A stretch of DNA of 64,000 bases from Achromobacter sp. Root83. GTDB lineage: Bacteria > Pseudomonadota > Gammaproteobacteria > Burkholderiales > Burkholderiaceae_B. The notes under the pieces are model-generated. The model ran no database searches. It was not told where the DNA came from and was given only the letters and a program-made list of their open reading frames with translations. Position numbers and translations under genes: made by a program. Below, in pieces: positions 22,595 to 39,526 of the stretch (positions are counted from its first letter, which is position 1; the number at the start of each line of letters is the position of its first letter). The DNA is taken from positions 62,001-126,000 of the forward strand of contig NZ_LMIU01000022.1 of the NCBI RefSeq assembly GCF_001428845.1, given 5' to 3'.

Positions 22595-23569
22595 ATGATC
22601 AATCAAAAGAAAGGCCTGATCGCAGGCGGCGTCGTGGTGGTGCTGGGCTGCGCCTGGTGGGGCCTGGGCGCCTATGCCGCCGGCAAGGCGGAAGACGAAC
22701 TGGTGGCGCTGCTGGACAAGACCGGCCAGCGCGACATGGTGCACTGGAAGAGCATTTCGGCATCGCCGTTTGGCTCGGCCAAGCTGAAGGAAGTCACGAT
22801 CGGCTCGCTGGCCGCGCCTGTCGCCAGCATCCAGACCGTCAAGATCAGCGGCTTGCGCAATACCCGCGACCGTCAAAGCGGTGACGTCACCATCGAGGGC
22901 GCCGCCCTGCCCAACGGCAACAGCGTGCTGAGCCAGACAGACCTGATCCGCCAGGCCGGCAAGACGGACCTGCCGCCCGCCAACCTGCGCATGCGCTGGG
23001 ACTACCAGCGCGACGACGACAATGCCGAGATCGCGCTGAGCCTGGAACAGCCCGAAGCCCTGAACGCCGAACTGTCGCTGGCCCTGGAGCGCGTCAACGG
23101 CGCGGTCGCCCTGGCCGAGGACGGCGCCGGGCTGGGCGCGCTGGGCGTCATGGGGATGATGGGCATGGGCCGCATGGACCGTGCGCTGGCGCCTCTGGCA
23201 CAGATGCGCGTCACGGCGGGCAGCCTGTCCTTGAAAGACGACGGCTACGTCAAGCGCAGCATCGAACTCTACAAGCGCTACAACATCACCGCCGTGCCCG
23301 GCGACGGCAATCCTGACAAGCAGCGCGCCAAGCAGTTCGACAGGTTGGTCGACGACACCAAGAAGCAGTGCATTCAGAAGAAGGCGCTATCCGGCTTCAA
23401 GGACAACGAGGACGCCTGCGAGGCCGTGGCCAATTTCGCCAGCGGCGAAGACAGCACGATCACGCTGACCTTGAACCCGCGCAACGGCGTGTCCGTCGCT
23501 GAAATGCTGGCGGGCGGGCCGAACTACAACGCGGCGCTGGCGCTGTTCTCGCCCTCGCTGAAGAACTGA
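22595..23569 (+). CDS. membrane-anchored YdgA/DUF945-like protein
   Basis: A 324-residue protein with one N-terminal membrane helix (about residues 7-30, GLIAGGVVVVLGCAWWGLGAY) and a large extracytoplasmic part. The opening, KKGLIAGGVVVVLG followed by YAAGKAEDELVALLDK, resembles the DUF945/YdgA group of envelope proteins. A Met/Gly-rich patch (VMGMMGMGRMDRAL) lies mid-protein. It follows the exported Ala/Pro-linker protein by 19 bases and its last 46 bases overlap the 3' end of the hybrid kinase gene on the other strand. Confidence 0.7.
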   Translation: MINQKKGLIAGGVVVVLGCAWWGLGAYAAGKAEDELVALLDKTGQRDMVHWKSISASPFGSAKLKEVTIGSLAAPVASIQTVKISGLRNTRDRQSGDVTIEGAALPNGNSVLSQTDLIRQAGKTDLPPANLRMRWDYQRDDDNAEIALSLEQPEALNAELSLALERVNGAVALAEDGAGLGALGVMGMMGMGRMDRALAPLAQMRVTAGSLSLKDDGYVKRSIELYKRYNITAVPGDGNPDKQRAKQFDRLVDDTKKQCIQKKALSGFKDNEDACEAVANFASGEDSTITLTLNPRNGVSVAEMLAGGPNYNAALALFSPSLKN

Positions 23570-26500
23570 GCGCGCTGACGCGGCGTCAGGGTTTGTTCGA
23601 GCATCTGCTCCAACTGATCCAGAAAAGGCGCCAGCCGTCCCAAGGTGCTGGGCGTGCCCTGCTGCATGCCCGTTTCGATTTCCACCAGCGCACGGCTGAG
23701 GTCGCTGCGCCGGAACACGCCCAGCATCCCCTTTAGCTGGTGCAATTCCGCCCGCAGGCCCTGCGTGTCCTGCGCCAGCCTGGCCTGCCTGAGCACCAGG
23801 ATAGACCGGCGGCAGGCGTGCGCGAACACGTGCATCAGATCCTCCGGCATGGCCTCCTTGCCCAGCAGCGCGCCATTGGCGGCGTCCGCCTCCGAGACCG
23901 CGTCCGCGTTGGCGGCGTCTTCCGGCAGCAGGGCCAGGGCCCGCTCCAGTTTGGCCAACAGCAGCGGCTTGCTCAGCACATCGGCCATGCCGGCCGCCTT
24001 GGCCCGTTCGCGCTCGGTTGGCGTGACGTTGGCCGTCACCGCCACGACCGGCATCGACGGCCAGCGCTGGCGGACCCGCGCAGCCAATTCATAGCCGTCC
24101 ATGCCCGGCATGGACAGGTCGGTCAGCAGCACGTCGAAACGCTGCCGCCGCAGCGCCTCCAGGGCGCGCTCGCCATCCTCGGCCAACTCCGCATCGCAAC
24201 CCAGCAGCCGAAGCTGTTCGCGCAGCAAGGCGCGGTTGGCGGCATTGTCCTCCGCCACCAGCACCCGCAGCCGGCGCGCCGTCGGGCCTGCTTGCCGTTG
24301 CCGCGAAGCCAGCGCCCTGCCCTGCAACGTGTGCCGCAGCGCCGCCGCCAGGCCCTTCAGTCCGTGGATCGAAACGCTCAGCACGCTGCCCGTCGCCACG
24401 GGCTCGCCCGGGCCGTCCCGCGAGCAATCGATCACCCAGGCGGACTCTTCGACCAGCTGGTTCTCGTCGTCCGGATGCCAGGTCTGCCGTTCTCCCCACA
24501 GGATCAGGGTCCGCGCCTGGCCCAGGACCGCCTGTGAGACCTGGGCCGGATGCTGGTAGGCGTGCGCGCGCAGCCCCCAGGCCGTCAGCGTCCTGACCAG
24601 GTAGTTCCGCCAATGATCCGACGCGGCCACGACCAGCACCGATTCGCCCCGGAATCCCGGCACATCGGGCGGCGCAACCGCGCATGCCATGGGCAGCGCC
24701 AGCGTGAAGCGGCTGCCCCTGCCCGGCTCGCTTTGGACCGTCAGGGTGCCGGCCATCGCCTGCGTCAGCCCCTGGCACAGGGCCAGGCCCAGCCCGGTGC
24801 CCCCAAAGCGCCGGCCGATCGACGCGTCGGCCTGGCTGAAGGCACGGAACAGCCGGTCCGTCTGCGCCCGCGACATGCCGATGCCGGTGTCCTCGACCGA
24901 GATGACAAGGCGGGACGTGTCCGCCCGCCCATCCACCCGCACCAGCACCTGGCCGGCCTGCGTGAACTTGATGGCATTGGACAACAGGTTCTGCACGACC
25001 TGCCCCAGCCGGACCGGGTCTCCGGTCGTCGGCCACGTCGCGGCCTGCCCCCACTCGCCCAGCAGGGACAGGCCTTTGGCGCGCGCCACGGGCTCGAACA
25101 TCGTCAGGGCATGCGACACCACTTCCAGCGCATCGAATTCGATGGCCTCCAGGCGCATTTCGCCCGCCTCGATCTTCGAGAAGTCCAGCACATCGCTCAC
25201 GATGGAAAGCAGCGCGCGGGAGGACGTCTGGACGGTGTCCAGGCGATCCCGCTGGATCGCGTCCAGGCGCGAATGCGCCAGCAGTTCCAGGTTCCCCAGT
25301 ATCGCGTTCAGCGGGGTCCGGATCTCGTGGCTCATCGCGGCCAGAAAGGCGGATTTGGCCGCGTTCGCCTGATCGGAGGCCTGCTTCGCCTCGCGCAGCC
25401 CCTGCTCCAGCCGGCGCTTGGCCGTCACGTCCGTGAAGGCCGCCACCAGCATATCCTTGCCCAGGTACCTGACGCGGACCACGCTGACCGACAGGTCCAC
25501 GCTGGCGCCGTCCACCGTGGCAAGGCTCACGTCTTCCTGGAACTCACGCAGTCTCCAACTGATGTCTCCCCGGGAAACGCGCTCTTTGTAGCGCCGCACG
25601 ATCATGGTGGCCAGCGGCGGCTCGCCCGGCCCGATGCGCTGGCCGATAAGGGCCATCTCGGGGCTCATCAATAACGATCTGCCGGTTTCCACATCGATCA
25701 GCCCCAGCCCCAGGGGGGCCGTTCCGATCAAGGTGCGGCTCAGTTCCTCGCTTTCGAACACGCGCTGCGAGCGCTCCACCAGCGGCCGCACGATCCTCAG
25801 CTTGAATCTGAGCAGCAGCGCCCAGACCAGGGCGATCGCGATCAGGGCAAGGGCGCCATCCTGCCCCACCCGCCAGCCGATGTCGGCCAGCACCTCGCGC
25901 CATGGATGGGCGGCCACCAGCACCCACCCGGTATTGCCCAGTGGCTTCGATATCGCGAATACGCCGGACCGGTACTCTTCGAGCCAGCCCGCGCCCGTGC
26001 GTCCGGCGATGTCGCCCAGTCTCCAGGATGGCGGCAGCTCGCGCCCGCCCTCCTGCGCAACGACGCCGCCCTGGCGCGTCGAGATCAGATAGGCGCCTTG
26101 CCCGGGCTCGCGCGCCAGTGGCTTGAGCAAGGCCTTCGGGTCATATTCCATGACCAGCACGCCAAAAGGCCGGCCGTCATCCATGATGGGAGCGGCGATC
26201 TTGAATGCGCGCACGCCGGTCAGCGGGTTGACCGCGGGCGGGATCCAGGTCAGCGCGGGCACGGCCATCGGCTCGTGCGAGTCCGGGCTCCGCAGATGCG
26301 CATCCACGCCCTGCGTGATCAGGGCAAGCAACTGCTCGCGGTTGGCCGAGTAATACGCGCGGTCCCGGGCGCGGGGGGCCGGAATGATGCCCACCATATC
26401 GTGGCTGAAGGTGTAGAAGTAGCCGGAGAATTCGTTCTTTCTGACCAGCCCTTCTATCGCGGCCACGCGGCCAAGCTGGATCGACAGGCCGACGAACCGC

Positions 26501-26892
26501 AGCAGCGCGCGCTCGTCGAGACCGGCGGCCGTGGCGCCGGAGATCCACTGCGCCGGCCGCCCGGCCACCGCCCGGATCAGCAGGCTTTCGCCCTGCGCGC
26601 GGTAGAGCGCGCCATAGGTTCTGTCCGGCGGCGGGCTTTCGCTCCAGATGAGCGCGGCGGAGACCAGCGCCGTCCGGAAGGCGTGGGCCCGCGCCTCGAC
26701 CTCCGCCATCACGCGGGCATGGTCGACAAAGAAGGCCTGGCGCTGCACCCCGGCATACTCGTTCAAGGTGCTTTGCGATTCCAGGACGAACATCAGCAAC
26801 GTCATCGCCGTCGTGAGGATGCCTCCTCCAAACACCAGCAAACGTTGCGAATATCGCAGGCGCGTCAACGCCTTGATCGGTGAATCCAGCAT
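23524..26892 (-). CDS. hybrid sensor histidine kinase with receiver and Hpt domains
   Basis: A 1122-residue membrane phosphorelay kinase. Membrane helices lie near residues 17-38 and 346-366 and enclose a ~300-residue periplasmic double-Cache-like sensor. A PAS-like domain (~385-490) ends in AAFTDVTAKRRLEQ. The HisKA domain has His521 in FLAAMSHEIRTPLNAI, and the ATPase domain has NLLSNAIKFT, DTGIGM and FGGTGLGLAL. Next come a degenerate receiver without phospho-acceptor (~745-860), a receiver with Asp~924 in LLTDLSMPGMDG, and an Hpt domain with His~1050 in ELHQLKGMLG. No response regulator is adjacent. It lies 211 bases downstream of the ketoacyl synthase gene on the same strand. Confidence 0.92.
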   Translation of the reverse strand: MLDSPIKALTRLRYSQRLLVFGGGILTTAMTLLMFVLESQSTLNEYAGVQRQAFFVDHARVMAEVEARAHAFRTALVSAALIWSESPPPDRTYGALYRAQGESLLIRAVAGRPAQWISGATAAGLDERALLRFVGLSIQLGRVAAIEGLVRKNEFSGYFYTFSHDMVGIIPAPRARDRAYYSANREQLLALITQGVDAHLRSPDSHEPMAVPALTWIPPAVNPLTGVRAFKIAAPIMDDGRPFGVLVMEYDPKALLKPLAREPGQGAYLISTRQGGVVAQEGGRELPPSWRLGDIAGRTGAGWLEEYRSGVFAISKPLGNTGWVLVAAHPWREVLADIGWRVGQDGALALIAIALVWALLLRFKLRIVRPLVERSQRVFESEELSRTLIGTAPLGLGLIDVETGRSLLMSPEMALIGQRIGPGEPPLATMIVRRYKERVSRGDISWRLREFQEDVSLATVDGASVDLSVSVVRVRYLGKDMLVAAFTDVTAKRRLEQGLREAKQASDQANAAKSAFLAAMSHEIRTPLNAILGNLELLAHSRLDAIQRDRLDTVQTSSRALLSIVSDVLDFSKIEAGEMRLEAIEFDALEVVSHALTMFEPVARAKGLSLLGEWGQAATWPTTGDPVRLGQVVQNLLSNAIKFTQAGQVLVRVDGRADTSRLVISVEDTGIGMSRAQTDRLFRAFSQADASIGRRFGGTGLGLALCQGLTQAMAGTLTVQSEPGRGSRFTLALPMACAVAPPDVPGFRGESVLVVAASDHWRNYLVRTLTAWGLRAHAYQHPAQVSQAVLGQARTLILWGERQTWHPDDENQLVEESAWVIDCSRDGPGEPVATGSVLSVSIHGLKGLAAALRHTLQGRALASRQRQAGPTARRLRVLVAEDNAANRALLREQLRLLGCDAELAEDGERALEALRRQRFDVLLTDLSMPGMDGYELAARVRQRWPSMPVVAVTANVTPTERERAKAAGMADVLSKPLLLAKLERALALLPEDAANADAVSEADAANGALLGKEAMPEDLMHVFAHACRRSILVLRQARLAQDTQGLRAELHQLKGMLGVFRRSDLSRALVEIETGMQQGTPSTLGRLAPFLDQLEQMLEQTLTPRQRAQFFSEGENSASAAL

Positions 26893-27103
26893 GGCGGATA
26901 GGGTCGGGCCCGTCTGATGGCCGCGAGGATATCAAGAGTGCCGATTATGAGTGGATTTGCTCTGGCGCAAGCAAACACCCGGCGCTATTCGAATCCGCCC
27001 TGCCATGGAACGCCTGGATTCGTACAAGGTCGAGCTTTCCAGGCCGCCATGCTTAATTCCAGGCATGAACCCCGGCGCATCCGGCGGCGCCCCGCCTCGG
27101 CCG

Positions 27104-28321
27104 TCAGCAGACCTTGCGGAACGCCAGCACGGCGTTGTTGCCACCCATGCCGAAGGAATTGCTCAGCGCCACCCGCAGGCCCGGCAAGCGCCTGGCCGAC
27201 AACGGCACGCAGTCCAGATCGCACTGCGCATCACCGCCTTCGTAAAACAGCGTGGGTGGCACCACGCCCCGCAGCACGGACAATGCGGTCACGGCGGCCT
27301 CGACCGCGCCCGCGGCCCCGATCATGTGCCCGACCGCCCCCTTGATGCTGCTGACGGGCAGCGCCGCCGCATGGCCGCCGAACACCTTCTTGATGGCCGC
27401 CGTTTCGATCCGGTCGCCCACCAGGGTGCCGGTCGCATGCGCGTTGATATAGCCCACGTCCCCGGGCGCCAGGCCCGCGTCGGCCAGGCAACGCGACATG
27501 GCCAGCGCCTGCCCCTCGGGGTCCGGACGCAGGGGATGCGTGCCGTCGTTGCTGACGCCGTAGCCGCACAACTCCGCAATCGGCGCCGCGCCCCGCGCGG
27601 CGGCATGCGCGGCGCTTTCCAGAACCAGCATGGCGGCGCCCTCGGACAGCGCGAAGCCCGTGCGCCTGTTGCTGAACGGCCGGCATCCGCCCGCTCCGCC
27701 ATCGGCAGGATCGGCGCACAGCACATGCAATTGCAGCCAGGCCGCGAAGACGACCGGGGTCAGCATCGCGTCAGCGCCGCCGGCGATGGCGACGTCCAGG
27801 TAACCGTCGCGGATGCGCCGGAAGGCCTCGCCGATGGCGACCGCGCCCGAAGAGCAGGCCGTGGCATAGGTTTGCGCCTCTGCCACGGACTTGATCGTCT
27901 GCGCGATCTGCGCGGCGGCCGCGTTGGGCATCGTCGCGGGAACGACCAGCACCGGCCGCTTGGGCACGACGCCATGAAAGGCTTCGACCCCTTCGCACAG
28001 GGTCGATACGCCGCCGACCCCGGTGCCCACGAACACCCCGCATTCCGCATGCCGCGCCGCGCCGAGCCCGGCGCGCGCGAGGGCCTGGCCGGCCGCGTAC
28101 TGCGCCATTACCGTCACCCGGTCCATCATCCGCGCCTGGCTGGGGTGCAGGCCGGCCGCGATGTCCGCGCGCACCTGTCCCACCCGCCGGCCGATTCCCG
28201 CGTCCGGGTGCGGATCCACGCCGCATTTACCCGCGATCAGCGCGTCGAACGTCTGCTCGGCGGAGTCTCCCACCGGGGTGGCCATGCCCATCGCCGTGAT
28301 GACGACTCGGCGGGGATCCAT
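27104..28321 (-). CDS. FabF-type beta-ketoacyl-ACP synthase in fimbrial operon
   Basis: A 405-residue condensing enzyme with the complete Cys-His-His triad: Cys156 in YATACSSGA, His295 in NAHATGTLVGD and His332 in GAVGHMIGAAG, with the conserved Lys in SSIKG. Family members extend acyl chains on acyl carrier proteins by decarboxylative condensation with malonyl-ACP. The start MDPRRVVITAMG at 28321 is the normal FabF opening. The gene begins 16 bases after an acyl carrier protein gene, itself 18 bases after the fimbrial adhesin, so it belongs to the fimbrial transcript. It is more divergent than a housekeeping FabF (for example TACSSG instead of TACAT), which points to a specialised acyl product. 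Confidence 0.9.
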   Translation of the reverse strand: MDPRRVVITAMGMATPVGDSAEQTFDALIAGKCGVDPHPDAGIGRRVGQVRADIAAGLHPSQARMMDRVTVMAQYAAGQALARAGLGAARHAECGVFVGTGVGGVSTLCEGVEAFHGVVPKRPVLVVPATMPNAAAAQIAQTIKSVAEAQTYATACSSGAVAIGEAFRRIRDGYLDVAIAGGADAMLTPVVFAAWLQLHVLCADPADGGAGGCRPFSNRRTGFALSEGAAMLVLESAAHAAARGAAPIAELCGYGVSNDGTHPLRPDPEGQALAMSRCLADAGLAPGDVGYINAHATGTLVGDRIETAAIKKVFGGHAAALPVSSIKGAVGHMIGAAGAVEAAVTALSVLRGVVPPTLFYEGGDAQCDLDCVPLSARRLPGLRVALSNSFGMGGNNAVLAFRKVC

Positions 28322-28337
28322 CGCGGCGCCGGCGCGG

Positions 28338-28787
28338 CTACGGCGCACGGCCAGCGCCGGACGGCATCCCCGCGTCGGGCGCGGCGGCGGCGTCCGACGC
28401 CGCGGTGCGCCGGGCCTGCCGCAACGCTTGCAGCGTGTCCTCTCCCGCTTCCTGGCGGGCGGCGACGCGCGCAGCCACGACGCGCATGTAGGCGATCAGT
28501 TCGGACAGGTCCTTGGGAAACACGCTGGTGATTTCCTGGGCGCCGGTGGCATGGTCCAGCGGCAGCATGTCGTCCGTCTGGATGTGGAATTCGGTTTCGA
28601 CTTCCAGCAGGATTTCCAGGATCGCCAGCGAGTCGAACTGCGTGATGACCGCCGAGAACGCCTGGCCGTCAAGCAAAGGACCGGGTTCGCACCGGCAGAC
28701 CGTCGCGATGATCGTAGCCATCCTGTCGCGCAGGACCGGCGTATCCGGCAGCGAGACGATGTCAGCGGGCTTGGGGGTATCGGGCAT
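28338..28787 (-). CDS. acyl carrier protein with extended C-terminal tail
   Basis: A 149-residue protein. Residues ~18-105 form an acyl carrier fold: VITQFDSLAILEILLEVETEF has Ser53 in the FDSL context as the predicted phosphopantetheine site. Standard ACPs are about 80 residues; this one has an N-terminal extension of ~20 and a C-terminal Ala/Arg-rich tail of ~45. AGGA lies 8 bases before the ATG. It sits between the adhesin (18 bases) and the ketoacyl synthase (16 bases), so the pair looks like a dedicated two-protein acyl system inside the pilus operon. Which acyl group is carried is unknown. Confidence 0.82.
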   Translation of the reverse strand: MPDTPKPADIVSLPDTPVLRDRMATIIATVCRCEPGPLLDGQAFSAVITQFDSLAILEILLEVETEFHIQTDDMLPLDHATGAQEITSVFPKDLSELIAYMRVVAARVAARQEAGEDTLQALRQARRTAASDAAAAPDAGMPSGAGRAP

Positions 28788-28805
28788 GTTCCGGATCCTG
28801 TCGAT

Positions 28806-30011
28806 TCAGTTGTAGGCGAACGTCAGCGTGGCGCCCGTCTGCAGCGCACCGGCGCGGATCTCGTTCACCGCGCCGGTGCGCGCATAGCGCATGGAAAACT
28901 GGTATTGCCACGATGACGCGGGCAGGCTGCCCAGGGCCTGGCCCAGATCCGTATGCACGGTGCCGAAGCCGGGATCCCGGCGCGTGCCCGTCGCGGGAAC
29001 GATCGTCTGCAACTGCACGCCCACGCCCTGCGCGGCGTTCGCTCCCGTCAGCGCATTGGCCAGGAGGTTCGGCGAACTGCCCAGCCGGTTGTTCGACGTG
29101 ATCTTCAGGGTCGGCGGCGATTGGCTCGACGAAGCACACGTGACCGGCACGATTCTGGTCTCCTCGGGCCCCGTCGCCGACCCGGCCAGCGTCGCCGAAT
29201 TGATGTCCGGCAGGTTCACGTTCAAGGCCGACGCCTGGCTGACCGAGCAGGTCGGCACGCTGATCACGATGTTCCCCAACAGGGATACCCGGTACAGCGG
29301 CATCGGCATCGAACCGGAGTAGGGCACGGAGAGAACGCTTTGGCCATACACGTTGGCCGAAAGAATCGTCCCGGGCCTGACCTCGTCGCCCGTGGAAACG
29401 AAGTCGATCCGCGTGCGCAGGTTGCTGCCGAACGAATTGCCGTTGAACGGAAACACCAGCGCGCCGGAGGTAAAGGTGTTGGCGGCATACCAGGGCGCCG
29501 AAACGGATTCATTGCTGGAGATGTAGTAGTACACCCGGTAGCCGATCCCCGCCACGCCGGTCTGGTAGACGTCGGACCCCGAAATAGGCGAGCCCCGGCC
29601 ATTGAACATTTCCAGGCCTCCGCTGGGACAGTCGTAGACCGGGGCCGCCCTGCCCTGGGCCTGCCCGGTCAGCCAGGGCAACTGCGTCTCCGTCGACGAG
29701 AACAAGAGCTGCCCGAAGCCCTTGTTGGCGGGCACGGGGTAGGAGGAAGACCGGGGTCTGACGGTGATCTGCCAGATACCCACATCGAAGCCGTCGTAGC
29801 GGTTTCCCTGGGAACTGACACCGCCGTTGTTGTTGACTCTGCACATCGTGGGCGCGCTGCGCGAATCCAGTGGCCCCGCCCGCGCGGCATCCAGGCCGCC
29901 GCCCAGCGCCGCGGCCATGGCCAGCGCGCTGGCCGCCAGGCGTCGGCGGCGCCGCAGTTCCGCGCAGGCCCGCGGCCGGCCGAGGTCGTACTTCATCGTC
30001 GTCAGACGCAT
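28806..30011 (-). CDS. fimbrial tip adhesin (two-domain, MrkD/FimH-like)
   Basis: About 401 residues with a signal sequence (~residues 20-45, ending DAARAG). The N-terminal ~200 residues after it form a receptor-binding-type domain with CRVNNNGG and DCPSGGLE. The C-terminal ~170 residues are a pilin domain with SVPTCSVSQAS and VPVTCASSSQ as its disulfide, ending in a terminal beta strand ATLTFAYN as in subunits held by a chaperone. Last structural gene of the operon, the usual place for a tip adhesin. The ATG at 30011 overlaps the usher stop by 10 bases and follows AAGGAA. The receptor is unknown. Confidence 0.82.
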   Translation of the reverse strand: MRLTTMKYDLGRPRACAELRRRRRLAASALAMAAALGGGLDAARAGPLDSRSAPTMCRVNNNGGVSSQGNRYDGFDVGIWQITVRPRSSSYPVPANKGFGQLLFSSTETQLPWLTGQAQGRAAPVYDCPSGGLEMFNGRGSPISGSDVYQTGVAGIGYRVYYYISSNESVSAPWYAANTFTSGALVFPFNGNSFGSNLRTRIDFVSTGDEVRPGTILSANVYGQSVLSVPYSGSMPMPLYRVSLLGNIVISVPTCSVSQASALNVNLPDINSATLAGSATGPEETRIVPVTCASSSQSPPTLKITSNNRLGSSPNLLANALTGANAAQGVGVQLQTIVPATGTRRDPGFGTVHTDLGQALGSLPASSWQYQFSMRYARTGAVNEIRAGALQTGATLTFAYN

Positions 30012-32506
30012 GTCAATTCCTTGCTCTTCTCTTCCGGCTGGCTCTTGCCGGCAGGCACCTCGATATCGAAGGCGCATTGGTTTTCCTGGTCATTGCCCCA
30101 CCGCACCGTGAAGCGGTTGGCGCCCGCCAGGCCGGTCAGCCAGACCCGGCCCACCGGCCCGACGATGCCCTTCTGCTCGTTGTCCTTGTCGAACACCGCA
30201 GCGCCGAACGGCAATTCCATTCCCGCATCATTGCGCAGCACCACCAGCATGGCGCGCCCGATCTCGGTATCGAACCTGGCCACCACGATGGCGCCCCGGG
30301 TCGGCACCACGGTTTGCACGTTGTGTTCCAGCGTGGTGTCGGCGTCGTCGAAGTTCGGCGTCAGGGATACCCGGTTCTCGCGGTAGGCGTTGGCATACGG
30401 AATCAGGGCCCGGCCATCGCCGTTGGTGCGCACGCCCGGAAAGGAGTCCACTTCCACCCCGGACGCGCCCGGCGCCTCCACGATGATCGCGGTCTCGCCC
30501 AGCGACTGGCCCAGCAGCACGCCCTTTCCGTCCAGCAGGATGGCGCCGCTGACATCCAGGTTGGTGTTGGACGAACGCTTGCTGTAGGCATGGCTGACGT
30601 TCGCGATGCCGGTCGGCCCCGCGTAGCCCAGCGCGCCGTATCCGCGCGCGCCCTCGCCCGAGCCGCTGGTCACCCCGGCCTGCAGCGCGTAGGTCAGCGC
30701 GTAGTCATCCGTCAGCGCCCCGCTCAGGGTGGCGTCCTGGCTCGTGCCCTGGCCGGAGCTGCGGCCGATCGCATAGCTTCCGTTATGCGAGCCGCCCAGC
30801 GGAATATTCATCGTGAACATCACCGTGGATTCACGCCGGCTCCAGGGGCTGCGGTTGACGCCGTAGGTCAGGGAATAGCCCACCCGCCCGATCGAGCTCG
30901 ATACGCCCAGTTGGGCGAAGGTCGAAGTCGACGGCGCGTTCCGGTACGACACGCCGAAATAGTTGAACGACACCGACGCCCGCGTACCGATGCGCTGCGA
31001 CAGGGAAAGCTGGTACTCGTTCACGCGGCTGAGGCCGCGCAAAAGATCCGAGTCCGGCCCGGACCGGTCGCGCACGGCGTCGTCCAGGCTGCGGAACCCC
31101 GCCGAGTTGTAGCGGTAGCCGGCCAGCGTGAAATCCGTTCCGCTGCCGGGAAAGGACTTTGCGTACTGGATGCGCGCGGCGATGCCCGAGATGCTTTTGC
31201 CCCGGTCGTCCCGCGAGCGCGACCCCGTGATATCCGACGACACCGCGCCCAGCGTCTCCATGTTCAGCGCCATGCCCAGCGCGCCGGCCTGATAGGAGCC
31301 CTCGGCCACCATCGCTCCGCCATAGCCCGTCAGCCCGCCGGGCAGGCCATAAGCCATGGTGAACTGGCTCATCATGGGACGTTCCGAGTCGAACCTGGAT
31401 CGATGCTCGCCCGCCACGAAGTTGTAGCTCAGGATGCCTTCGCGCATCATCAGCGGCAACGCCGAGAACGGCTGCGAGAACCGCGTGACGCGGCCGCCGA
31501 GTTCCTCGATTTCCACCTGCAGGTCTCCGCCGCCGGGCGTGGAGTACAGGTCGTCGATCACGAAGGGGCCGGCCGGCACAAACGTCGTGTAGACCACGTA
31601 GCCGTTCTGGCGCACCGTGACCTTGGCGTTGCCGTTGGCGATGCCGCGCACCACGGGCGCATAGCCCCGCTGGCTGTCGGGGAGCATGCTTTCGTCCGAC
31701 TGCATCTGCAGGCCGCGAAAGCGCGACGAACTGAAGATATTGCCGGGCGTCGAACTGGCGCCCAGGCGCAGCCAGCTTCGCAGCGGCACGATGCCGCGCT
31801 CGGCGTACACGTCGGTCCAGTCCCACGTGGACTCGCCGTTGCTCTGGTAGAAGCTGCCGTTGTTGCGCACGCGCCATTCGCCCAGGTTCAGGCCATTGCG
31901 AAAGCTCGCGAAGGTCGAATGGCTATTGCTGCCCCCGCCGGACACGCTCATCTGGTTGTGCCCGATCCGGTACGAGGACCACAGCGCGGTCTTGCCGCTG
32001 TCCCACAGATCGGCCGACACCAGGCCGCGCGCCTTCCGGTCCAGCGCGGCCTGGGGGATCGACAGGTCCAGGATGTTCTTTTCGTGGTCGTACGCGATCG
32101 ACGTCTGCGGAATGGCGGCCAGCGGCGCCGTGCAGTCGGTGGGGTCCATGCTCAGCAACGGCGCGAAGGCCTTGATGTTGACGCCAAGCTCCTCCAGCGC
32201 GGTCACGGTGAAGCAAGGCTGCGCGTCCTCCTTGCCCTCTTGCGCCACGAACTCGATGTCGCGAGTGCCCAGCGGCTGGCGGTTCAGCCGCAGCAGCACG
32301 GTACGCGTGCCGGGCAGCACGCGATTGGAAAACGCAAAGACCGACAGGTCCACGCCGGGCTGCCCTTTGACGTTATGCAGGAAGTTGTTGTCGAACGAGG
32401 CTGCCGCCTCTTCCGGTGTCTGGCCGCTGGCGCTTGCGCAGGCCAGCGCCAGGGACAGGAAGCCCATTCCAGTGGCCAGGGAGCGATACAGGATCTTTGT
32501 TCTCAT
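30002..32506 (-). CDS. fimbrial outer-membrane usher (FimD/PapC family)
   Basis: An outer-membrane channel that receives chaperone-subunit complexes and assembles the pilus. The signal peptide starts at MRTKILYRSLATGMG (32506). The N-terminal periplasmic domain follows (SFDNNFLHNVKGQPGVDLSVF), with the motif VDLSVF typical of ushers. Then come the barrel with plug (FVPAGPFVIDDLYSTPGGGDLQVEIEELGG shown in part: GPFVIDDLYSTPGGGDL) and C-terminal domains ending ...LTCV. Mature length ~810 fits the family. Possible longer starts (ATG 32551, GTG 32605) place extra residues before the signal peptide and are less likely. Confidence 0.92.
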   Translation of the reverse strand: MRTKILYRSLATGMGFLSLALACASASGQTPEEAAASFDNNFLHNVKGQPGVDLSVFAFSNRVLPGTRTVLLRLNRQPLGTRDIEFVAQEGKEDAQPCFTVTALEELGVNIKAFAPLLSMDPTDCTAPLAAIPQTSIAYDHEKNILDLSIPQAALDRKARGLVSADLWDSGKTALWSSYRIGHNQMSVSGGGSNSHSTFASFRNGLNLGEWRVRNNGSFYQSNGESTWDWTDVYAERGIVPLRSWLRLGASSTPGNIFSSSRFRGLQMQSDESMLPDSQRGYAPVVRGIANGNAKVTVRQNGYVVYTTFVPAGPFVIDDLYSTPGGGDLQVEIEELGGRVTRFSQPFSALPLMMREGILSYNFVAGEHRSRFDSERPMMSQFTMAYGLPGGLTGYGGAMVAEGSYQAGALGMALNMETLGAVSSDITGSRSRDDRGKSISGIAARIQYAKSFPGSGTDFTLAGYRYNSAGFRSLDDAVRDRSGPDSDLLRGLSRVNEYQLSLSQRIGTRASVSFNYFGVSYRNAPSTSTFAQLGVSSSIGRVGYSLTYGVNRSPWSRRESTVMFTMNIPLGGSHNGSYAIGRSSGQGTSQDATLSGALTDDYALTYALQAGVTSGSGEGARGYGALGYAGPTGIANVSHAYSKRSSNTNLDVSGAILLDGKGVLLGQSLGETAIIVEAPGASGVEVDSFPGVRTNGDGRALIPYANAYRENRVSLTPNFDDADTTLEHNVQTVVPTRGAIVVARFDTEIGRAMLVVLRNDAGMELPFGAAVFDKDNEQKGIVGPVGRVWLTGLAGANRFTVRWGNDQENQCAFDIEVPAGKSQPEEKSKELTCV

Positions 32507-32606
32507 GGTGCTTGCGTGCGCCTCGCTGAAAGCGAGCCGGGATCGGTTCATGTTGGATGAATGGGGCAAGCCCGATGGGGCCGCTTGCGCGGCGGATGGA
32601 TGCACG

Positions 32607-33149
32607 CTACGAATAGGTCAGCGTTACCGTCGCGGTGGCGTTCGCGGTGCCGGCCCTTGGCGCGGCGCCTTGCACGGGGCTGTAGAACGCCTTGAAGTCG
32701 TAGCTCGTCTTGATGCTGCCCACGTCGAAGGGAATGCCTTCGTTGCGGTTGAAGACGACGGAAAGCCCGTCGCCGGGATGCGTCGCATCGGTCCGGACGA
32801 TCTGGATGCCGATGCCGGCCGCCACCCTGGGATCCGGTGTCAAGGCAAGCAAGGTGTCATTGCTGCCGGGAACGGTGGCGCCCGTGAAATCCAGCGAGGC
32901 GGAATGCAGCGTCTGCAGGTCGCACCCCGCCAAACCCACCTGGAAGTTCTTTCCGTAGTTGACGCCCGAGCCGGGGCTGCCCAGGAAGTCCGCCAGCGGG
33001 ACCTTTCCCATGTCCACGGGACTCAGCACCAGCGTGCACGGCGCCGGCACGATTCTGCCCGTCACCTCCAGCAACGCGCCCCGCGCCTGCATCACGCCGC
33101 ACAGTGCCAACAGCGCCACCGCGCAGCGGGTTCGGATCGTTCTGTTCAT
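32607..33149 (-). CDS. fimbrial subunit (pilin)
   Basis: A 180-residue pilin of the FimA/PF00419 type. Signal peptide about residues 1-24 (ending ARGA), then the donor strand and domain opening LEVTGRIVPAPCTLVLSP, a second Cys in LAGCDLQTLHSASLDF that closes the usual disulfide, and the terminal strand TANATATVTLTYS. It lies between the chaperone and the usher genes, so it may be a minor or adaptor subunit. Start at 33149 is fixed by the signal peptide. It is clearly related to the subunit encoded at 33881 (same ending). Confidence 0.88.
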   Translation of the reverse strand: MNRTIRTRCAVALLALCGVMQARGALLEVTGRIVPAPCTLVLSPVDMGKVPLADFLGSPGSGVNYGKNFQVGLAGCDLQTLHSASLDFTGATVPGSNDTLLALTPDPRVAAGIGIQIVRTDATHPGDGLSVVFNRNEGIPFDVGSIKTSYDFKAFYSPVQGAAPRAGTANATATVTLTYS

Positions 33150-33165
33150 TTGCACACCCAAGGCG

Positions 33166-33873
33166 CTACTGCAACGATATTTCTGGCCAGGGCTCGACCA
33201 CGCCATAGTCGTTGACGACGTGGGGCGCCAGCTTGATGGCTCCGGCGGGGCACTTGCCGAGCGCGACGCGCGTGCTGGCCAGCGGTTTGGCGACAACGGC
33301 CGTGCCGAACCCGGACGGCTCTCCGGTCGTATCGATGCGGGCGAAGTTCATGTTGTAGGCCGAGCCGTTCTGGATATCGATGCCGCAGTTCTTGCCATCG
33401 CGCACCAGGGCCCACTTCACCAGTTCGGGGCCGCGCGGAAGCTGCAGGACGGCCGTCGGACGGTAGAACAGCTTGATGCGCGTGCGCGTCGCCAGCGTCA
33501 GGCTGTTCTGGGCGGCGTCGGTCTTCTGCGGAATTTCCAGCACGTTGACCCAGTAGTAGGACTCGCGGTCGCCCGGCAACTGTCCCCCGCCCACCCGCGT
33601 GATGTTCAGGCTGCGTTCGGCATTCGCGTCGAACCGGCTGAGCGGCGGCGTGATGAAGAACGGGGTCTGCATTTCCTCGGCTTCGCCGTCGATCCATGCC
33701 TGCACCACGAAGGGCGCGGTCGTCAGGTTCTTCGCGAAGATCGAGACGTTGCGATCCTTTTCGTTCATGATGACGCGCGTGCCGGACAACTGGATCGCGG
33801 CGTCGGCCGCGCCGCCGGCCAGCGCGGCCATCAGGGCGATCGCCGGCAGAAAGGATAGGAATCGTATTTTCAT
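33166..33873 (-). CDS. periplasmic fimbrial chaperone (FimC/PapD family)
   Basis: A 235-residue protein with a signal peptide (about 1-24, ending ADAA) and two Ig-like domains. Visible are the N-terminal strand AIQLSGTRVIMNEKDRNVSI, the family motif YYWVNVLEIPQK in domain 1, and TRIKLFYRPTAV at the domain boundary. The second domain carries a Cys pair (KNCGIDI; LGKCPAG), as in many chaperones. It folds pilins and delivers them to the usher. It lies 7 bases after the upstream pilin stop. Confidence 0.92.
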   Translation of the reverse strand: MKIRFLSFLPAIALMAALAGGAADAAIQLSGTRVIMNEKDRNVSIFAKNLTTAPFVVQAWIDGEAEEMQTPFFITPPLSRFDANAERSLNITRVGGGQLPGDRESYYWVNVLEIPQKTDAAQNSLTLATRTRIKLFYRPTAVLQLPRGPELVKWALVRDGKNCGIDIQNGSAYNMNFARIDTTGEPSGFGTAVVAKPLASTRVALGKCPAGAIKLAPHVVNDYGVVEPWPEISLQ

Positions 33874-33880
33874 GGCGTCC

Positions 33881-34417
33881 TCAGGCGTAGCTCAGCGTGA
33901 CCGTGGCGGTGGCGTTGGCCGTGCCCGTGCGCAAAGCCACGCCAGGCACCGGCACCAGCTTTGCCTGGAAGTCATAGGTGTTCTTGCCGCTGGCCAGCAA
34001 AAAGGGATAGGCGGTCGCGCCGTCGAAACGCACGGCCGTACCCACCGAGCCGCCATGCGTGCTCTCGTTGATGTAGACAGAGACGGCAACGCCCTGCGCG
34101 CGCGTGGACGCATCGTTCAGCGCCAGCCCGGTGCTGTTCGATACTTCCGGCACGATGGTGCCCGCGAACGTGACGGAAGCGCGCGTCAGGGTCGCCATAT
34201 CGCAATTCCCGAGCGTGACCTGGAACGTCTTCGCATATTGGCTGTCGGTAAAGTTCGCGATCGGCACGTCGCCGAACGCCACGGCGCCCACCGAGATCGT
34301 GCACGACGCGGCGACGACTCGCCCCGTGATGTTCAATTGCGCGCTTTGCGCCTGGACAGCGCCCGCCATCAAGGCATAAGCCGCAACGGCCGCAAGCCCT
34401 TTCAATCTGATGTTCAT
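33881..34417 (-). CDS. fimbrial subunit (pilin)
   Basis: A 178-residue pilin with a signal peptide (about 1-23, ending AVQAQ). The mature protein opens with AQLNITGRVVAASCTISV, has the partner Cys in TLGNCDMATLTRASVTF and ends in NATATVTLSYA. The ATG at 34417 is chosen for the signal peptide and the length of the family. It follows the major pilin gene after a 191-base gap that contains two strong hairpins, and precedes the chaperone by 7 bases. Confidence 0.88.
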   Translation of the reverse strand: MNIRLKGLAAVAAYALMAGAVQAQSAQLNITGRVVAASCTISVGAVAFGDVPIANFTDSQYAKTFQVTLGNCDMATLTRASVTFAGTIVPEVSNSTGLALNDASTRAQGVAVSVYINESTHGGSVGTAVRFDGATAYPFLLASGKNTYDFQAKLVPVPGVALRTGTANATATVTLSYA

Positions 34418-34559
34418 TTCTTCGCCCAAAAGCTCGCCCACACGGGTCACGCCTGCTGGATCCGTGGGCAATTCGACCAATTCGATTGGGATCCGGACGC
34501 GGTCCGCCGCGCCCGGATGCACCGGATGCCGGCAATGCACTCCGGCAATGTCGGAAGGC

Positions 34560-34599
34560 GGGCCGGGCGATAAGCCCGGCCCAGGGGCGGAACCGCCCC
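34560..34599 (-). promoter_or_regulatory. tandem hairpins between major pilin and rest of fimbrial operon
   Basis: Two perfect stem-loops lie in the gap behind the first pilin gene: a 9-bp stem (GGGCCGGGC / GCCCGGCCC, loop of five) and a 7-bp stem (GGGGCGG / CCGCCCC, loop of two). No T-run follows on the minus strand, so they are more likely a stabilising or attenuating structure that gives excess major pilin than a full terminator. Confidence 0.6.
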
Positions 34600-34608
34600 G
34601 CTACCCCA

Positions 34609-35136
34609 TTAGGAGTACGTGACTTCAAATACGGCGCGCGCGTTGGCGGCGCCAGCGGTCACGTTGGCGTCGGTCGCCTCGTAGAACGCCTTGAAGTTCA
34701 GGTTGTTGGTGCCTTCCTGCAGCGTGTAGGACTTGGCCGCGCCGCCGACGATGATGTCGGTGCCGTCCTGTTCCAGGCCGACCGCCACGCCACGGGCGCC
34801 GCTGGCGTTTTCCAGGCCCAGCAGGCGGCTGGCGACAACGCTGCCGGCGCCCGGTGCGAACGAGATCGATGCCGTGGTGGCGACCGAGATGTCGCAGCCC
34901 AGCAGCGAGATCGTGAAGTCCTGCTTGGGACCGCGGACGCCGACGCCGGAGAACATGTTGGTCGAGATGCTGCCCATCGACACCGTCATGTTGCTGCCCA
35001 GTTGGCCGCCGCCGATCGAGCACGCGGATTCCGTGATTTCGCCTTCGAACGAAATCCGTCCGCTGTCCGCTGCGGCGGTGCCGGCGATGGCGGCCAGGGT
35101 AGCGGCGAACAATGCGTTGATGAGAGTCTTCTTCAT
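34609..35136 (-). CDS. major fimbrial subunit (pilin), first gene of operon
   Basis: A 175-residue pilin with signal peptide (about 1-23, MKKTLINALFAATLAAIAGT...). The mature part opens with GRISFEGEITESACSIGG, has the second Cys in ISLLGCDISVATTASISF, and ends ARAVFEVTYS. Being first in the operon and separated from the others by hairpins is the usual arrangement of the most abundant subunit. The promoter must lie upstream of 35137; only 39 bases separate this gene from the next minus-strand reading frame. Confidence 0.88.
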   Translation of the reverse strand: MKKTLINALFAATLAAIAGTAAADSGRISFEGEITESACSIGGGQLGSNMTVSMGSISTNMFSGVGVRGPKQDFTISLLGCDISVATTASISFAPGAGSVVASRLLGLENASGARGVAVGLEQDGTDIIVGGAAKSYTLQEGTNNLNFKAFYEATDANVTAGAANARAVFEVTYS

Positions 35137-35175
35137 GGTAAGGAACCTATCGGGTTAAGAGGTTGGCAATCCGAG

Positions 35176-35583
35176 TCAACAACCCAGCCGGCGGATCGAA
35201 GCATTGCGTGTGGCAATTCCCGTCCGCTTGCGCCGCAGTCCCGCAAGGGTGCCCAGTAGCGAGTTCGCCGGCCAGAACAGGCACTGGCTGACAAAGCGTC
35301 CGGGCAGATGCGGGCGCTTGCTCAGGCCCTTCCGATACTTGATATCGGCGGCCATCCAACGCACCGCGACGGCAAGGCCTCGTGCCAGCATCCGATGCTT
35401 GCGCATCAGCCGCAGGCACGGAGCCGCCCAGAGCCGGTAGCCCTGGTACGTCGCTGGGGAGAACCTTGACGCGCAGTAGCTGGCGTCATGCACCCAATCC
35501 GAGACGGAGATCAGTTCCTGGCGACGCAACTCGTTGCATACGATTTTTGAGCTGTAATCGACCCAGATACCTAGCTTTTTCAT
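35176..35583 (-). CDS. small basic protein of unknown function upstream of pilin
   Basis: A 135-residue reading frame with balanced composition (five Trp, several Tyr and Cys), unlike the Arg/Ala/Gly-rich shadow frames nearby, so it is probably a real gene. The central part, YRLWAAPCLRLMRKHRMLAR, and FVSQCLFWPANSLLGTLAGL near the end are weakly amphipathic or hydrophobic; the protein is strongly basic. No family recognised. Its position, directly before the major pilin on the same strand, suggests either a leader gene or a regulator. No good ribosome-binding site is seen before the ATG. Confidence 0.5.
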   Translation of the reverse strand: MKKLGIWVDYSSKIVCNELRRQELISVSDWVHDASYCASRFSPATYQGYRLWAAPCLRLMRKHRMLARGLAVAVRWMAADIKYRKGLSKRPHLPGRFVSQCLFWPANSLLGTLAGLRRKRTGIATRNASIRRLGC

Positions 35584-35694
35584 CCGCGCTGCTCGGAAGT
35601 TGATTCAGAAAATGCAGGCGTTTTGCCTGCGCCAGCTCTCCATGTCTGGGAGCCATGAGCATCTTAGGTTTGGGCCTGCTTTCGTTATATAGGA

Positions 35695-37074
35695 CTAGGT
35701 CGAAACTTGAACGGCGGCGCGTGGCTTGCCCCGTTTGCGTTGGCGCAACAGGCGCGACAGGCGATGCAGCAGCCAGAGCGCGGCAACGGATGGCGCGCCG
35801 ATCCTCAACGTGTAGTGGAATATCTCGATTGCCCAGGTTGATGCCGCGATGGCCAGCAGCGCCAGCGCGCCGGCACCTGCATCCCAGGCGCGCGTGCCGG
35901 CGCCACGACGCTGCCTGAAGCGCGCGCAGGCCGCGAACACGGACAGCCAGACCGTCATCAACCCTGCCGAGGCGATCGCCGTGGCGCCGGTGCCCGCAAG
36001 CAGCGGCTGCCAGCGATAGGCCGCGTAGACGGCGCCCGCCAGCAACGCGGTCGCCACGACCGCGAGTGCGGGACTGCCCGCGTGGATCTCGCCCAGCCGC
36101 CTGGGCGCCTGACCCGCGCGCGCCAGGCTGAACAGCATGCGCGACGCGCAGTACAGCAGGCTGTTCAACACCGACAGCACCGTGACCGCCACGATCGCCT
36201 GAAACACGAAGCCCATCCACGGCAATCCGGTCAGCCTCAGCACCAGAAAAAATGGAGGCATGCCGATATGCGACACGCCCCGGTAGGCCAGCGCCGCGGA
36301 CACCCCCACCACGGCCAGCGACACCCCGGCAATCGCCCAGGCGGTCAGGCGCATCTGACGGCGGATCGCGGCCGCCGGCGCGGCCGTTTCCGCGGCGGCC
36401 ACGGACAGCGATTCAAGACCGATATAGCCCAGGGTTGCAAGAATGAATACCTTCCACACCGCCGGAAACACGTCCGCCCATCCGTGGCCGTCCGCGCTGG
36501 CCGCTGCCGCGGGCGGCGCGGCGGAAGATCCCGCCGCCAGCGCGTAATACGCGGCCAGGCCGACGAAGATGAGCAATGCCGACAGCTTGAACGCCGACAG
36601 GGCGAATTCCACGCGAGCGAACCAACGGGCTCCGCGCGCATTGATGAAGGCCAGGCAGGCAAGCGCCACCACCACCACGGCGTCCTCCGGGACCCGCGGC
36701 GCAAGCGTCTTGAAGGCGTACGACAGCAACGGGACTTCGGTGCCGATGATCAGCACCACCGCGACATAGAACGAGATGCGCACGACAAAGCCCGCCGAGC
36801 CGCCCAGATACTGTTCCGCGTAGGCGCCGAACGCGCCCGGCGTGGGATGCGCCGCGCTCATCTCTGCCAGGCAGCGGCTGAACAGCAGGGCCAGGACCGC
36901 GGCCGCCAGATAGCCGGCTATCGCCCACGGCCCCGCGACGAACACGGAATACCCGCCGCCGGTGATCAGGCCATAGCTGAGCACGGCGCCGATGGCGACC
37001 ATGGACATCTGCGCGGGACGCAGCACCGCCGGCAGCCCTGACTCTCTTCGTTGGATGTGATCGATTTCATTCAT
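35695..37074 (-). CDS. APC-family amino acid/polyamine permease
   Basis: A 459-residue membrane transporter with 12 predicted helices. The N-terminal motif MVAIGAVLSYGLITGGGYSVFVAGP corresponds to the substrate-binding first helix of the APC family, and the loop after helix 8 has SRMLFSLARAGQAPRRLGEIHAGS, a signature of these permeases. MNEIDHIQRRES is the natural N-terminus; a longer in-frame start would add ~85 residues of non-membrane, low-quality sequence. Substrate unknown. Monocistronic by appearance, with a 353-base upstream gap. Confidence 0.85.
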   Translation of the reverse strand: MNEIDHIQRRESGLPAVLRPAQMSMVAIGAVLSYGLITGGGYSVFVAGPWAIAGYLAAAVLALLFSRCLAEMSAAHPTPGAFGAYAEQYLGGSAGFVVRISFYVAVVLIIGTEVPLLSYAFKTLAPRVPEDAVVVVALACLAFINARGARWFARVEFALSAFKLSALLIFVGLAAYYALAAGSSAAPPAAAASADGHGWADVFPAVWKVFILATLGYIGLESLSVAAAETAAPAAAIRRQMRLTAWAIAGVSLAVVGVSAALAYRGVSHIGMPPFFLVLRLTGLPWMGFVFQAIVAVTVLSVLNSLLYCASRMLFSLARAGQAPRRLGEIHAGSPALAVVATALLAGAVYAAYRWQPLLAGTGATAIASAGLMTVWLSVFAACARFRQRRGAGTRAWDAGAGALALLAIAASTWAIEIFHYTLRIGAPSVAALWLLHRLSRLLRQRKRGKPRAAVQVST

Positions 37075-37427
37075 GATGGAGAACCCGGCGCCCGTGCTTG
37101 CGGGCGCGAAAGTGCATGCCGTTGTCCGAATGCCCGAAGCCGGGCGCGTGCGGGCCGACCGGATGCGCGCCAGCCCTGGAGATGGATGGCGCCCCTGCCG
37201 GCATGCGCGCGAATACGGGCGCACGCAGTCGGCGCCGGCTCGCGGCGCGCGGATTACGTGGGTGGGGCTAAAGGCTTCGCTGTCTTGGCGGCGCCGCGAA
37301 GGGCGCGCAAGCGCGCATTGAAACCGCAACTATCTCGTGGACCGATGATGCGCGCCGGCCGTCCCGGATTCCATAGGACAAGTTCGAAGATGCGCGGCGC
37401 GCAGGCCGCCTGGCCTGCACGGCCGGG
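37075..37427. other. 353-base intergenic stretch, no gene seen
   Basis: Leader region of the permease gene. Reading frames here have shadow-like composition. No riboswitch fold or operator that I know was recognised; short GC-rich inverted repeats occur, as expected from base composition. Confidence 0.5.
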
Positions 37428-37742
37428 TCAGCGGTAGGTCAAGGTCAGGAGTTGGCGGCGCTGGCCATCGCTGGAGACCAGTTCCTGCATCTGCACACCG
37501 ACTTCGGCGCCGATGGATTCGCCGGGTGCCCGCTGCGCCGCACGGGCGGCGGAACAGGTTGCGACCGCGCGTTGGACCATGCCTTGGCGCAGGGCCTGGG
37601 GCTGGCACGTGGCGCCTTCCACGATGGCGCCTTGAAACAGTATCTTCCCCGTTTGCTTGGCCGCAAGATTGGGCGCCGCGATGGCGGCATGGGAGAGTCC
37701 ACTAAGCAATGCCACTAATACCAGTGATCGGGTGGTGTTCAT
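37428..37742 (-). CDS. exported pilin-like mini-protein
   Basis: A 104-residue protein with a signal peptide (about 1-22, ending AIAA). The mature ~80 residues begin KILFQGAIVEGATCQPQ, close to the start of fimbrial subunits (strand, Cys after IVExxC), have a second Cys in AVATCSAA, and end LLTLTYR like the terminal strand of a pilin. Fimbrial subunits have about 150 mature residues, so the central strands are missing; it may be a reduced subunit, a capping or termination factor, or an unrelated small protein. Its promoter region carries repeated CTAGTAC elements. Confidence 0.68.
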   Translation of the reverse strand: MNTTRSLVLVALLSGLSHAAIAAPNLAAKQTGKILFQGAIVEGATCQPQALRQGMVQRAVATCSAARAAQRAPGESIGAEVGVQMQELVSSDGQRRQLLTLTYR

Positions 37743-38779: not shown

Positions 38780-39478
38780 TTACATGAACGTAAGATTTTC
38801 CAGGGATGCATTGCCTTCCCTGCTGTGTTCGCTGGCCAGCGCCACGCCGTTCTCGTACGCAAACCTGAACAGATCGACGTCACGGTTGATGCCCAGCTTT
38901 CGCATCGCGCTGGATTTCTGCGAACTGACCGTCTGCTTCGTGCGGTTCAGCGTCTTCGCGATCTCGGTGACCGAGGAGCCGCCGACGTACAGGCGCACCA
39001 CCTCGACTTCGCGGCGCGACAGGCGCTTGCGCCTGCCCTCGGGCTCGATGACATGGCCCTCGCTTTCGCCGGTGGCGCGCAATGACGGCGACAGGTACGT
39101 AGCGCCTGCATAGACGGCATGGATCGCGGAAATGAGGTGGCCGATATCGTCGACTTTGTTCAACACGGATTTGATGCCCAGCCTCATCATTTCGGACGCC
39201 ATCGCCGCGTTGCCGACGGTTGTGAACACAATGATCTTCAGGCCCGGAAAGCGGCGCCGCAGGAACGACAACATGCCCATGCCATCGCCGAAACTTCCTC
39301 CCGGCATGATGTAATCCGTGACGAAGACATCGCAGGCGTGCTGCGTCAGCAGATCAATAGCTTCAGAGGAGTTTCTGGCCGTGCCGACCACATGCAGGGT
39401 CTGTACGCTGCGCAATTCATGCTGCACGCCGGCAAGCACCGCAGGATGGTCATCGGCAAAAATCAGGTCTATTTTCAC
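38780..39478 (-). CDS. RcsB-like response regulator (receiver plus LuxR-type HTH)
   Basis: A 232-residue response regulator from the GTG at 39478, which has GGGA 7 bases upstream; a TTG seven codons earlier is the alternative. The receiver has the acidic pocket FADDHP and phospho-acceptor Asp55 in VTDYIMPGGSFGDG, a form typical of RcsB (DLSMPGxxxGDG). The C-terminal HTH has LSRREVEVVRLYVGGSSVTEIAKTLNRTKQTVSSQK (in part), again RcsB-like with ISSQK-type spacing. No cognate kinase is adjacent; the hybrid kinase with Hpt 12 kb away on the same strand is a candidate partner. BvgA-like is the alternative class. Confidence 0.85.
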   Translation of the reverse strand: MKIDLIFADDHPAVLAGVQHELRSVQTLHVVGTARNSSEAIDLLTQHACDVFVTDYIMPGGSFGDGMGMLSFLRRRFPGLKIIVFTTVGNAAMASEMMRLGIKSVLNKVDDIGHLISAIHAVYAGATYLSPSLRATGESEGHVIEPEGRRKRLSRREVEVVRLYVGGSSVTEIAKTLNRTKQTVSSQKSSAMRKLGINRDVDLFRFAYENGVALASEHSREGNASLENLTFM

Positions 39479-39526
39479 GGCGTTCCCAGTATGTTCCAAA
39501 CCCGGTTCGGGTCCAGATCCGCTGGT

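Follow-up and report, generated by a model that had tools for sequence, protein, structure and literature searches.

The window analysed here is a 64,000-nucleotide stretch of the 6.2-Mb genome of Achromobacter sp. Root83 (contig 22, 62001-126000), and it carries a chaperone-usher pilus operon that ends in genes for an acyl carrier protein (ACP) and a ketoacyl synthase (KAS). Nine genes lie on the minus strand from 35583 to 27104, in the order c0 (a gene without known family), two pilins, chaperone, third pilin, usher, adhesin, ACP, and KAS. Judged from gene sequences, the operon is real, conserved within Alcaligenaceae, and undescribed as far as our searches reach. By analogy with NodF/NodE, the ACP-KAS pair may supply a dedicated acyl group whose synthesis is coordinated with that of this pilus, and the operons that carry it may form a distinct chaperone-usher class with an acyl-building module; we hold the chances for and against this reading to be about even.

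The linkage was examined with a profile of the ACP family in 268 Alcaligenaceae genomes, and all 20 ACP places found were inspected. They are spread over 19 genomes, and a KAS gene adjoins the ACP gene at each of them. At 18 places, the window included, the pair and an usher operon are on the same contig. Co-occurrence with usher genes had been named in the original prediction as its first check, and usher, ACP, and KAS were indeed found together at 17 further single-contig loci, which rules out a chance neighbourhood. The adhesin was matched in 16 of these 17 loci, L085 being the one without a match. The other two places are a genome split by contig ends (G222), with ACP-KAS on one short contig and chaperone and usher on another, and genome G143 (locus L089), where the pair (ACP 30%, KAS 46% identical) stands outside a pilus operon. 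The gene order of the class is c0-pilins-chaperone-usher-adhesin-ACP-KAS; in the window, one more pilin gene separates chaperone and usher. The window's genome holds a second complete operon on contig 3 (L041), with a KAS 80% and an adhesin 39% identical to those of the window. Named carriers among the loci are Bordetella trematum, two B. petrii strains, genomospecies 2 and 7, and Bordetella sp. BOR01. Plasmid-borne spread was dismissed on finding no ACP match at E<=1e-5 in 72,556 plasmid records. Wide spread beyond the family was likewise dismissed: 399 genomes of the order and 398 of the phylum gave, besides the window's genome, one weak partial match per sample (G566 and G873), and no usher, KAS, or c0 match was present in 15 kb around that of G566.

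The pair follows one lineage of ushers. With the window usher as query, the 268 genomes gave 26 usher places in 24 genomes at E<=1e-150. The best 19 ushers (43-100% identity) were exactly those of the genomes with ACP-KAS except G143, and the next seven (36-40%) were unlinked; thus 19 of 19 ushers of the clade have the pair, one of them across the contig break in G222. Pfam recognised ushers in 104 of the 268 genomes, at about 240 places in all, which is a lower bound with at most five candidates scored per genome. Twenty-two unlinked usher loci, 10-16 kb in length (these seven, 13 more, and the two others of the window's genome, which has four ushers, two with the pair), gave no ACP, KAS, or c0 match at E<=1e-3. 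When the 19 linked and 22 unlinked ushers were placed in a tree, to which the unlinked locus L115 contributed one of its two ushers, the linked ones formed one side of a branch with a Shimodaira-Hasegawa-like approximate likelihood ratio test (SH-aLRT) support of 100. The proposal that the pair belongs to this type of pilus thus holds for a single usher clade. Since the linked ushers form one clade and all have the pair, the ACP-KAS module would most simply have joined the usher operon once and then been kept.

The KAS retains the predicted triad of Cys156, His295, and His332, together with Lys327. The cysteine, both histidines, and the lysine are invariant across 23 aligned KAS rows, 17 of them pilus KAS, so that the catalytic residues are kept in 17 of the 19 pilus copies; the other two are interrupted. 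The best model scores for the KAS were those of FabF-type models, all below their curated cut-offs (TIGR03150, 351.8 bits versus a cut-off of 493.75). Neither of the two signs by which a housekeeping FabF equivalog is recognised, this score and a place in the FabF clade, is found in it. In a midpoint-rooted tree of 47 KAS sequences, the 17 uninterrupted pilus KAS formed one clade (100/100), joined next by the KAS of L089 (99/96), then by those of other Burkholderiales ACP-KAS pairs, and then by NodE, whose two rows are a branch of their own outside which the pilus KAS lie. Eighteen housekeeping FabF lay on the opposite side (99/95), and this split upholds the claim that the pair is not a displaced housekeeping one. 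Three sequences labelled housekeeping beforehand (L014, L015, and L020) grouped with the ACP-KAS pairs, and two actinobacterial KAS joined FabF on a long branch. The pilus KAS share catalytic residues and domain matches with housekeeping FabF but stand in a separate clade, and the FabF motif GFGGTN reads GMGGNN in them. The phenylalanine replaced in this motif is presumably the acyl gate of E. coli FabF; since it is changed, the substrate choice of the pilus KAS may differ from that of FabF. Methionine at the gate was rejected as a mark of NodE, being present in one of two NodE rows only. When plasmids were searched with the KAS, Rhizobium supplied 36 of the best 40 of 1,292 matching records, at about 41-42% identity, and in one of the Rhizobium records (L090) the KAS match is annotated beside NodF, with nodABC, in a nod cluster.

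Ser53 of the ACP lies within FDSL, as had been read from the sequence. Alone, the window ACP falls below the Pfam cut-off (PP-binding, E 0.043), and PP-binding was matched at E<=1 by 19 of 20 family members, the best at E 2e-7. Asp52-Ser53 is invariant in ACP alignments of 30 and 20 rows. The nearest named relatives are from Achromobacter and Bordetella (five of 29 matches bear an organism name). The long tails of the ACP, which had been put forward as an argument against a housekeeping pair, vary in length and are nearly absent in some members; therefore, they are no argument by themselves.

Moreover, the operon has a core gene that the original prediction did not notice. This gene, c0, stands directly ahead of the first pilin in all 18 loci that have that stretch on the contig, even in the most divergent of them, where identity falls to 30-38%. 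A c0 profile search of 150 genomes gave 10 places in nine genomes, all in this operon. Its homologues are 30 proteins, unnamed or called "hypothetical protein"; the window c0 had no Pfam match at E<=10, and no relative of the family was found in PDB by sequence. The protein has an isoelectric point of 11.1, with 26 basic and six acidic residues, and no signal peptide was seen by eye. Its AlphaFold model is predicted to be all-helical, with five helices and a mean predicted local distance difference test score (pLDDT) of 85. Among 39 members 13 columns are invariant, Cys16 and Asp80 among them, and His92 is near-invariant. We regard c0 as a candidate dedicated transfer or targeting factor.

The spacing of the genes suggests that they are co-transcribed. 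The pilus genes, the ACP, and the KAS were all found where they had been predicted, on the one strand, and the short gaps behind the adhesin were recovered as well: 18 bases between adhesin and ACP, and 16 between ACP and KAS with the KAS start at ATG 28321. If the KAS starts at GTG 28348 instead, it overlaps the ACP by 11 bases; in eight of the 20 loci the end of the ACP frame and the beginning of the KAS frame share four bases. A separate promoter before the pair, which would have spoken against one operon, did not appear in a sigma-70-type scan of 26000-36500, which gave no promoter-like site (1.2 expected); terminator-like sites in the same region numbered seven versus 6.6 expected.

The ratio of nonsynonymous to synonymous substitution rates (dN/dS) of ACP, KAS, and c0 was 0.035-0.27 in 17 comparisons, which denotes purifying selection; the values come from a simple counting method with hand-picked pairs and some dS near saturation. 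The KAS was the best conserved of eight operon proteins (PIL3 not counted) in 14 of 15 near loci. The median identity to the window was 73.5% for KAS, 66% for PIL1 and for ACP, 64% for the chaperone, 63% for c0, 62% for the usher, 40% for PIL2 (11 loci), and 39% for the adhesin, as computed from the best tblastn segment in 15 loci, two interrupted KAS included and the divergent L085 and L088, the two pieces of G222, and L089 set aside. From these identities, the acyl product looks constant while the adhesin changes, rather than tailored to the target of the adhesin. The adhesin varies far more than the KAS, which makes its acylation slightly less likely.

The closest precedent, which the original prediction did not name, is NodF/NodE, the ACP and KAS with which rhizobia make Nod factors. 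According to published work, nodEF is required for alpha,beta-unsaturated acyl chains (PMC9048898), and a nodF mutation changes the C16:2 chain to C18:1 (PMC3908372). NodF/NodE thus steer the shared enzymes of fatty-acid synthesis towards a special chain, and by analogy the pilus pair should make an acyl-ACP. Like NodF/NodE, the pilus pair is a unit of two genes, ACP and KAS, that includes no reductase or dehydratase and lies beside genes for an exported product, and its KAS is on the NodE side of the KAS tree, with the identity to Rhizobium plasmid KAS given above. Unlike it, the pilus operon and its five scanned neighbours hold no NodA-type acyltransferase or Nod factor (chitooligosaccharide) genes recognised by Pfam, the identity of the ACP to NodF is only 16-17%, the NodE rows branch apart, and the pair is linked to a pilus.

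The sequences themselves show the linkage, its single origin with one usher clade, the catalytic residues, the purifying selection, and an ancestry apart from FabF; what the pair catalyses, what it makes, which acceptor it serves, and how it affects the pilus we infer as follows. The phosphopantetheinyl transferase of the cell would load phosphopantetheine onto Ser53 of the ACP, and the KAS would condense malonyl units onto the acyl chain held by this ACP. The housekeeping reductases and dehydratase would complete, or partly complete, each cycle, as in the NodF/NodE case. The special acyl-ACP would arise only during expression of this pilus and then pass to an acceptor, the likeliest being one served by acyltransferases of the cell (an envelope lipid, lipid A, or an exported lipid). 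Such a cell-served acceptor is slightly likelier than the pilus because the operon is without a recognised acyltransferase, and we therefore slightly favour an envelope or exported lipid over the pilus. The ranking could be reversed if c0 proves to be a transferase.

Several observations weigh against a NodF/NodE-like pair that serves this pilus. Among the nine genes of the operon and the five neighbours scanned, Pfam recognised no acyltransferase. With so low an identity of the ACP to NodF, the resemblance to NodF/NodE lies in the layout of the unit and the ancestry of the KAS and does not amount to close kinship. The spread is narrow (19 of 268 genomes, six genera), and the KAS is interrupted in two of the 19 pilus loci, by a broken frame in G135 and an in-frame stop in G154; therefore, the KAS can be lost, or those operons decay, or the assemblies err. 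In G174 (L087), the usher groups with those of L044 and L045 and the KAS does not (approximately unbiased test, p 1.9e-6, for a group chosen after the tree was seen). The tree program warns of long branches in the KAS tree, which has a midpoint root; the Rhizobium matches come from a plasmid-only collection; and four actinobacterial plasmid rows reach 43-46% identity, above Rhizobium, but with lower bit scores.

An alternative that we consider possible but doubtful places the acyl group on a pilin or the adhesin in the cytoplasm before export, with c0 acting as an acyl-ACP-dependent acyltransferase and the fibre or its tip being lipidated. Both the pair and c0 are fixed in one usher clade, and c0 has the features that such an enzyme could have: no signal peptide by eye, a very basic composition, invariant Cys16 and Asp80, and a near-invariant His92. 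The related pair of G143, beside a C39-peptidase exporter, is another pair next to protein or peptide export. Nevertheless, sequence searches matched c0 to no acyltransferase, the rapid divergence of the adhesin and PIL2 is not shared by the KAS, and inspection by eye showed no lipobox in the adhesin starts, of which 15 of 17 were readable in frame. The adhesin was rejected as a lipoprotein on the same reading, there being no lipobox at a cysteine near the mature start. Equally tentative, in our view, is a lipid-linked class of pili whose fibre or tip would bear a special acyl chain, or be anchored or tuned through one; the NodF/NodE-like pair would build this chain, and c0, as a new acyltransferase family, would transfer it.

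The pair might also be a generic, working Burkholderiales ACP-KAS module that one ancestral usher operon happened to capture at its end and whose product is unrelated to the pilus. Related pairs do occur in other Burkholderiales settings, and two of the 19 pilus KAS are interrupted. However, the origin is single, the pair is missing from none of the 19 clade ushers even at 43% identity, both operon copies in the window's genome retain it, and G174 has it despite a history unlike that of its usher, so that we regard this explanation as improbable. That ACP and KAS make no acyl chain, and instead sense the fatty-acid or envelope state and tune pilus expression, would suit the hybrid kinase and the LuxR-type regulator adjoining the window's operon; a binding-only role would not need the catalytic cysteine, two histidines, and lysine that are invariant in 17 uninterrupted pilus KAS, and relatives of the regulator and the kinase are near only six and three of the 17 other loci, which makes it very improbable. 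Hardly credible is a displaced or spare housekeeping fatty-acid pair (FabF/AcpP). FabF-type models do score best on the KAS, but under their curated cut-offs; of the five pair-bearing genomes in the Achromobacter-like genus g1, four show a separate FabF (37-38% identity) and the fifth, G034, is 57% complete; the KAS tree sets the pilus KAS apart from FabF at 99/95; and our searches located the ACP outside this operon in G143 alone, plus the two weak partial matches.

The features of the window are listed in Table 1. With a three-domain usher, a PapD-type chaperone, and PF00419 matches in the adhesin as well as in all three pilins, the operon is predicted from its genes to encode a chaperone-usher pilus.

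Table 1. Operon genes and neighbouring genes in the window
Feature	Position	Strand	Basis or remark
c0, 135 aa, basic, helical, without known family; first core gene	35176..35583	-	no Pfam match; helical AlphaFold model
PIL1, fimbrial subunit, probably the main one	34609..35136	-	PF00419
PIL2, fimbrial subunit	33881..34540	-	PF00419
PapD-type pilus chaperone	33166..33873	-	PF00345
PIL3, fimbrial subunit; open reading frame (ORF) overlaps chaperone gene, true start probably inside the ORF	32607..33296	-	PF00419
Outer-membrane usher; N-terminal, pore, and C-terminal domains	30002..32605	-	PF13954, PF00577, PF13953
Two-domain tip adhesin, C-terminal Fimbrial domain; ORF start overlaps usher gene	28806..30077	-	PF00419
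Dedicated ACP, Ser53 in FDSL	28338..28787	-	family alignment, weak PP-binding match
KAS, specialised lineage on NodE side of tree	27104..28321	-	C156, H295, K327, H332; GMGGNN; alternative GTG start 28348
Neighbour, not core: hybrid histidine kinase (HisKA, HATPase, receiver, Hpt)	23524..26892	-	211 bases after KAS
Neighbour: amino acid permease, upstream of c0	35695..37329	-	Pfam scan of neighbours
Neighbour: LuxR-type response regulator	38780..39502	-	Pfam scan of neighbours

The hybrid kinase and the LuxR-type regulator may control the pilus; relatives of the former were found near three, and of the latter near six, of the 17 other loci. The permease, not an obvious pilus gene, was found upstream of c0 in eight of the 17. 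The stretch 37428-37847 encodes a small protein that matches no Pfam family and, judged by eye, probably has a signal peptide; a protein at the corresponding side of the L087 operon shares 42% identity with it.

Some single loci deserve description. In L087 (3557-11425), whose ACP is only 42% identical to that of the window, the usher and ACP-KAS histories are discordant, which suggests exchange of the ACP-KAS module as a pair; by their sequences, the two halves of this operon seem to have different histories, and the pair is present nonetheless. The KAS of L081 (G154; 8316-9518, minus strand) has an in-frame stop, and there the adjoining ACP frame is open and other operon genes are matched. 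In L078 (G135; 3695-4544 and 9975-11184), the first pilin and part of the second are on the opposite strand, the KAS is interrupted, and the locus looks degenerate; the organism is probably Bordetella avium, from the names of close protein matches. An invertible pilin segment with flanking repeats was considered for L078 and rejected, as no inverted repeat of 12 or more was found. The pair of L089 (560-9881, minus strand) is beside genes for a C39-peptidase ATP-binding cassette transporter and for HlyD-type, MacB-type, and outer-membrane efflux proteins, a setting that resembles peptide export; a system exporting an acylated peptide is conceivable. Other Burkholderiales ACP-KAS pairs stand beside an alpha/beta hydrolase (L048) and a MipA-like protein (L046).

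Chaperone-usher pili are regarded as pure protein fibres, and to our knowledge no described chaperone-usher system encodes acyl-building enzymes. By Pfam, the operon shares with type 1-like pili the chaperone, the usher, the Fimbrial-domain subunits, and the two-domain adhesin, and it differs in that this clade starts with c0 and ends with ACP-KAS, as far as the contigs reach. Genome G148, which we take to be the published B. petrii strain, has three usher matches; L077 carries c0, ACP, and KAS, whereas L110 and L116 do not. The published account of B. petrii likewise gives three fimbrial clusters, each with a major subunit, a chaperone, an usher, and an adhesin, and the available part of it mentions no c0, ACP, or KAS in these clusters (PMC2572626). 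No published description of such a pilus-linked ACP-KAS operon was found, as far as our literature searches, which drew on partly accessible texts, reach.

If the pair does make an acyl group for this pilus, a pilus clade that has retained an acyl-building module of its own would bring lipid chemistry into pilus biology, and relatives in Achromobacter and Bordetella would gain an unexamined surface trait. Furthermore, the NodF/NodE principle, in which one ACP and one KAS redirect the shared fatty-acid machinery, would be in use outside symbiosis. An acyl group on the fibre, if found, would make the system categorically new.

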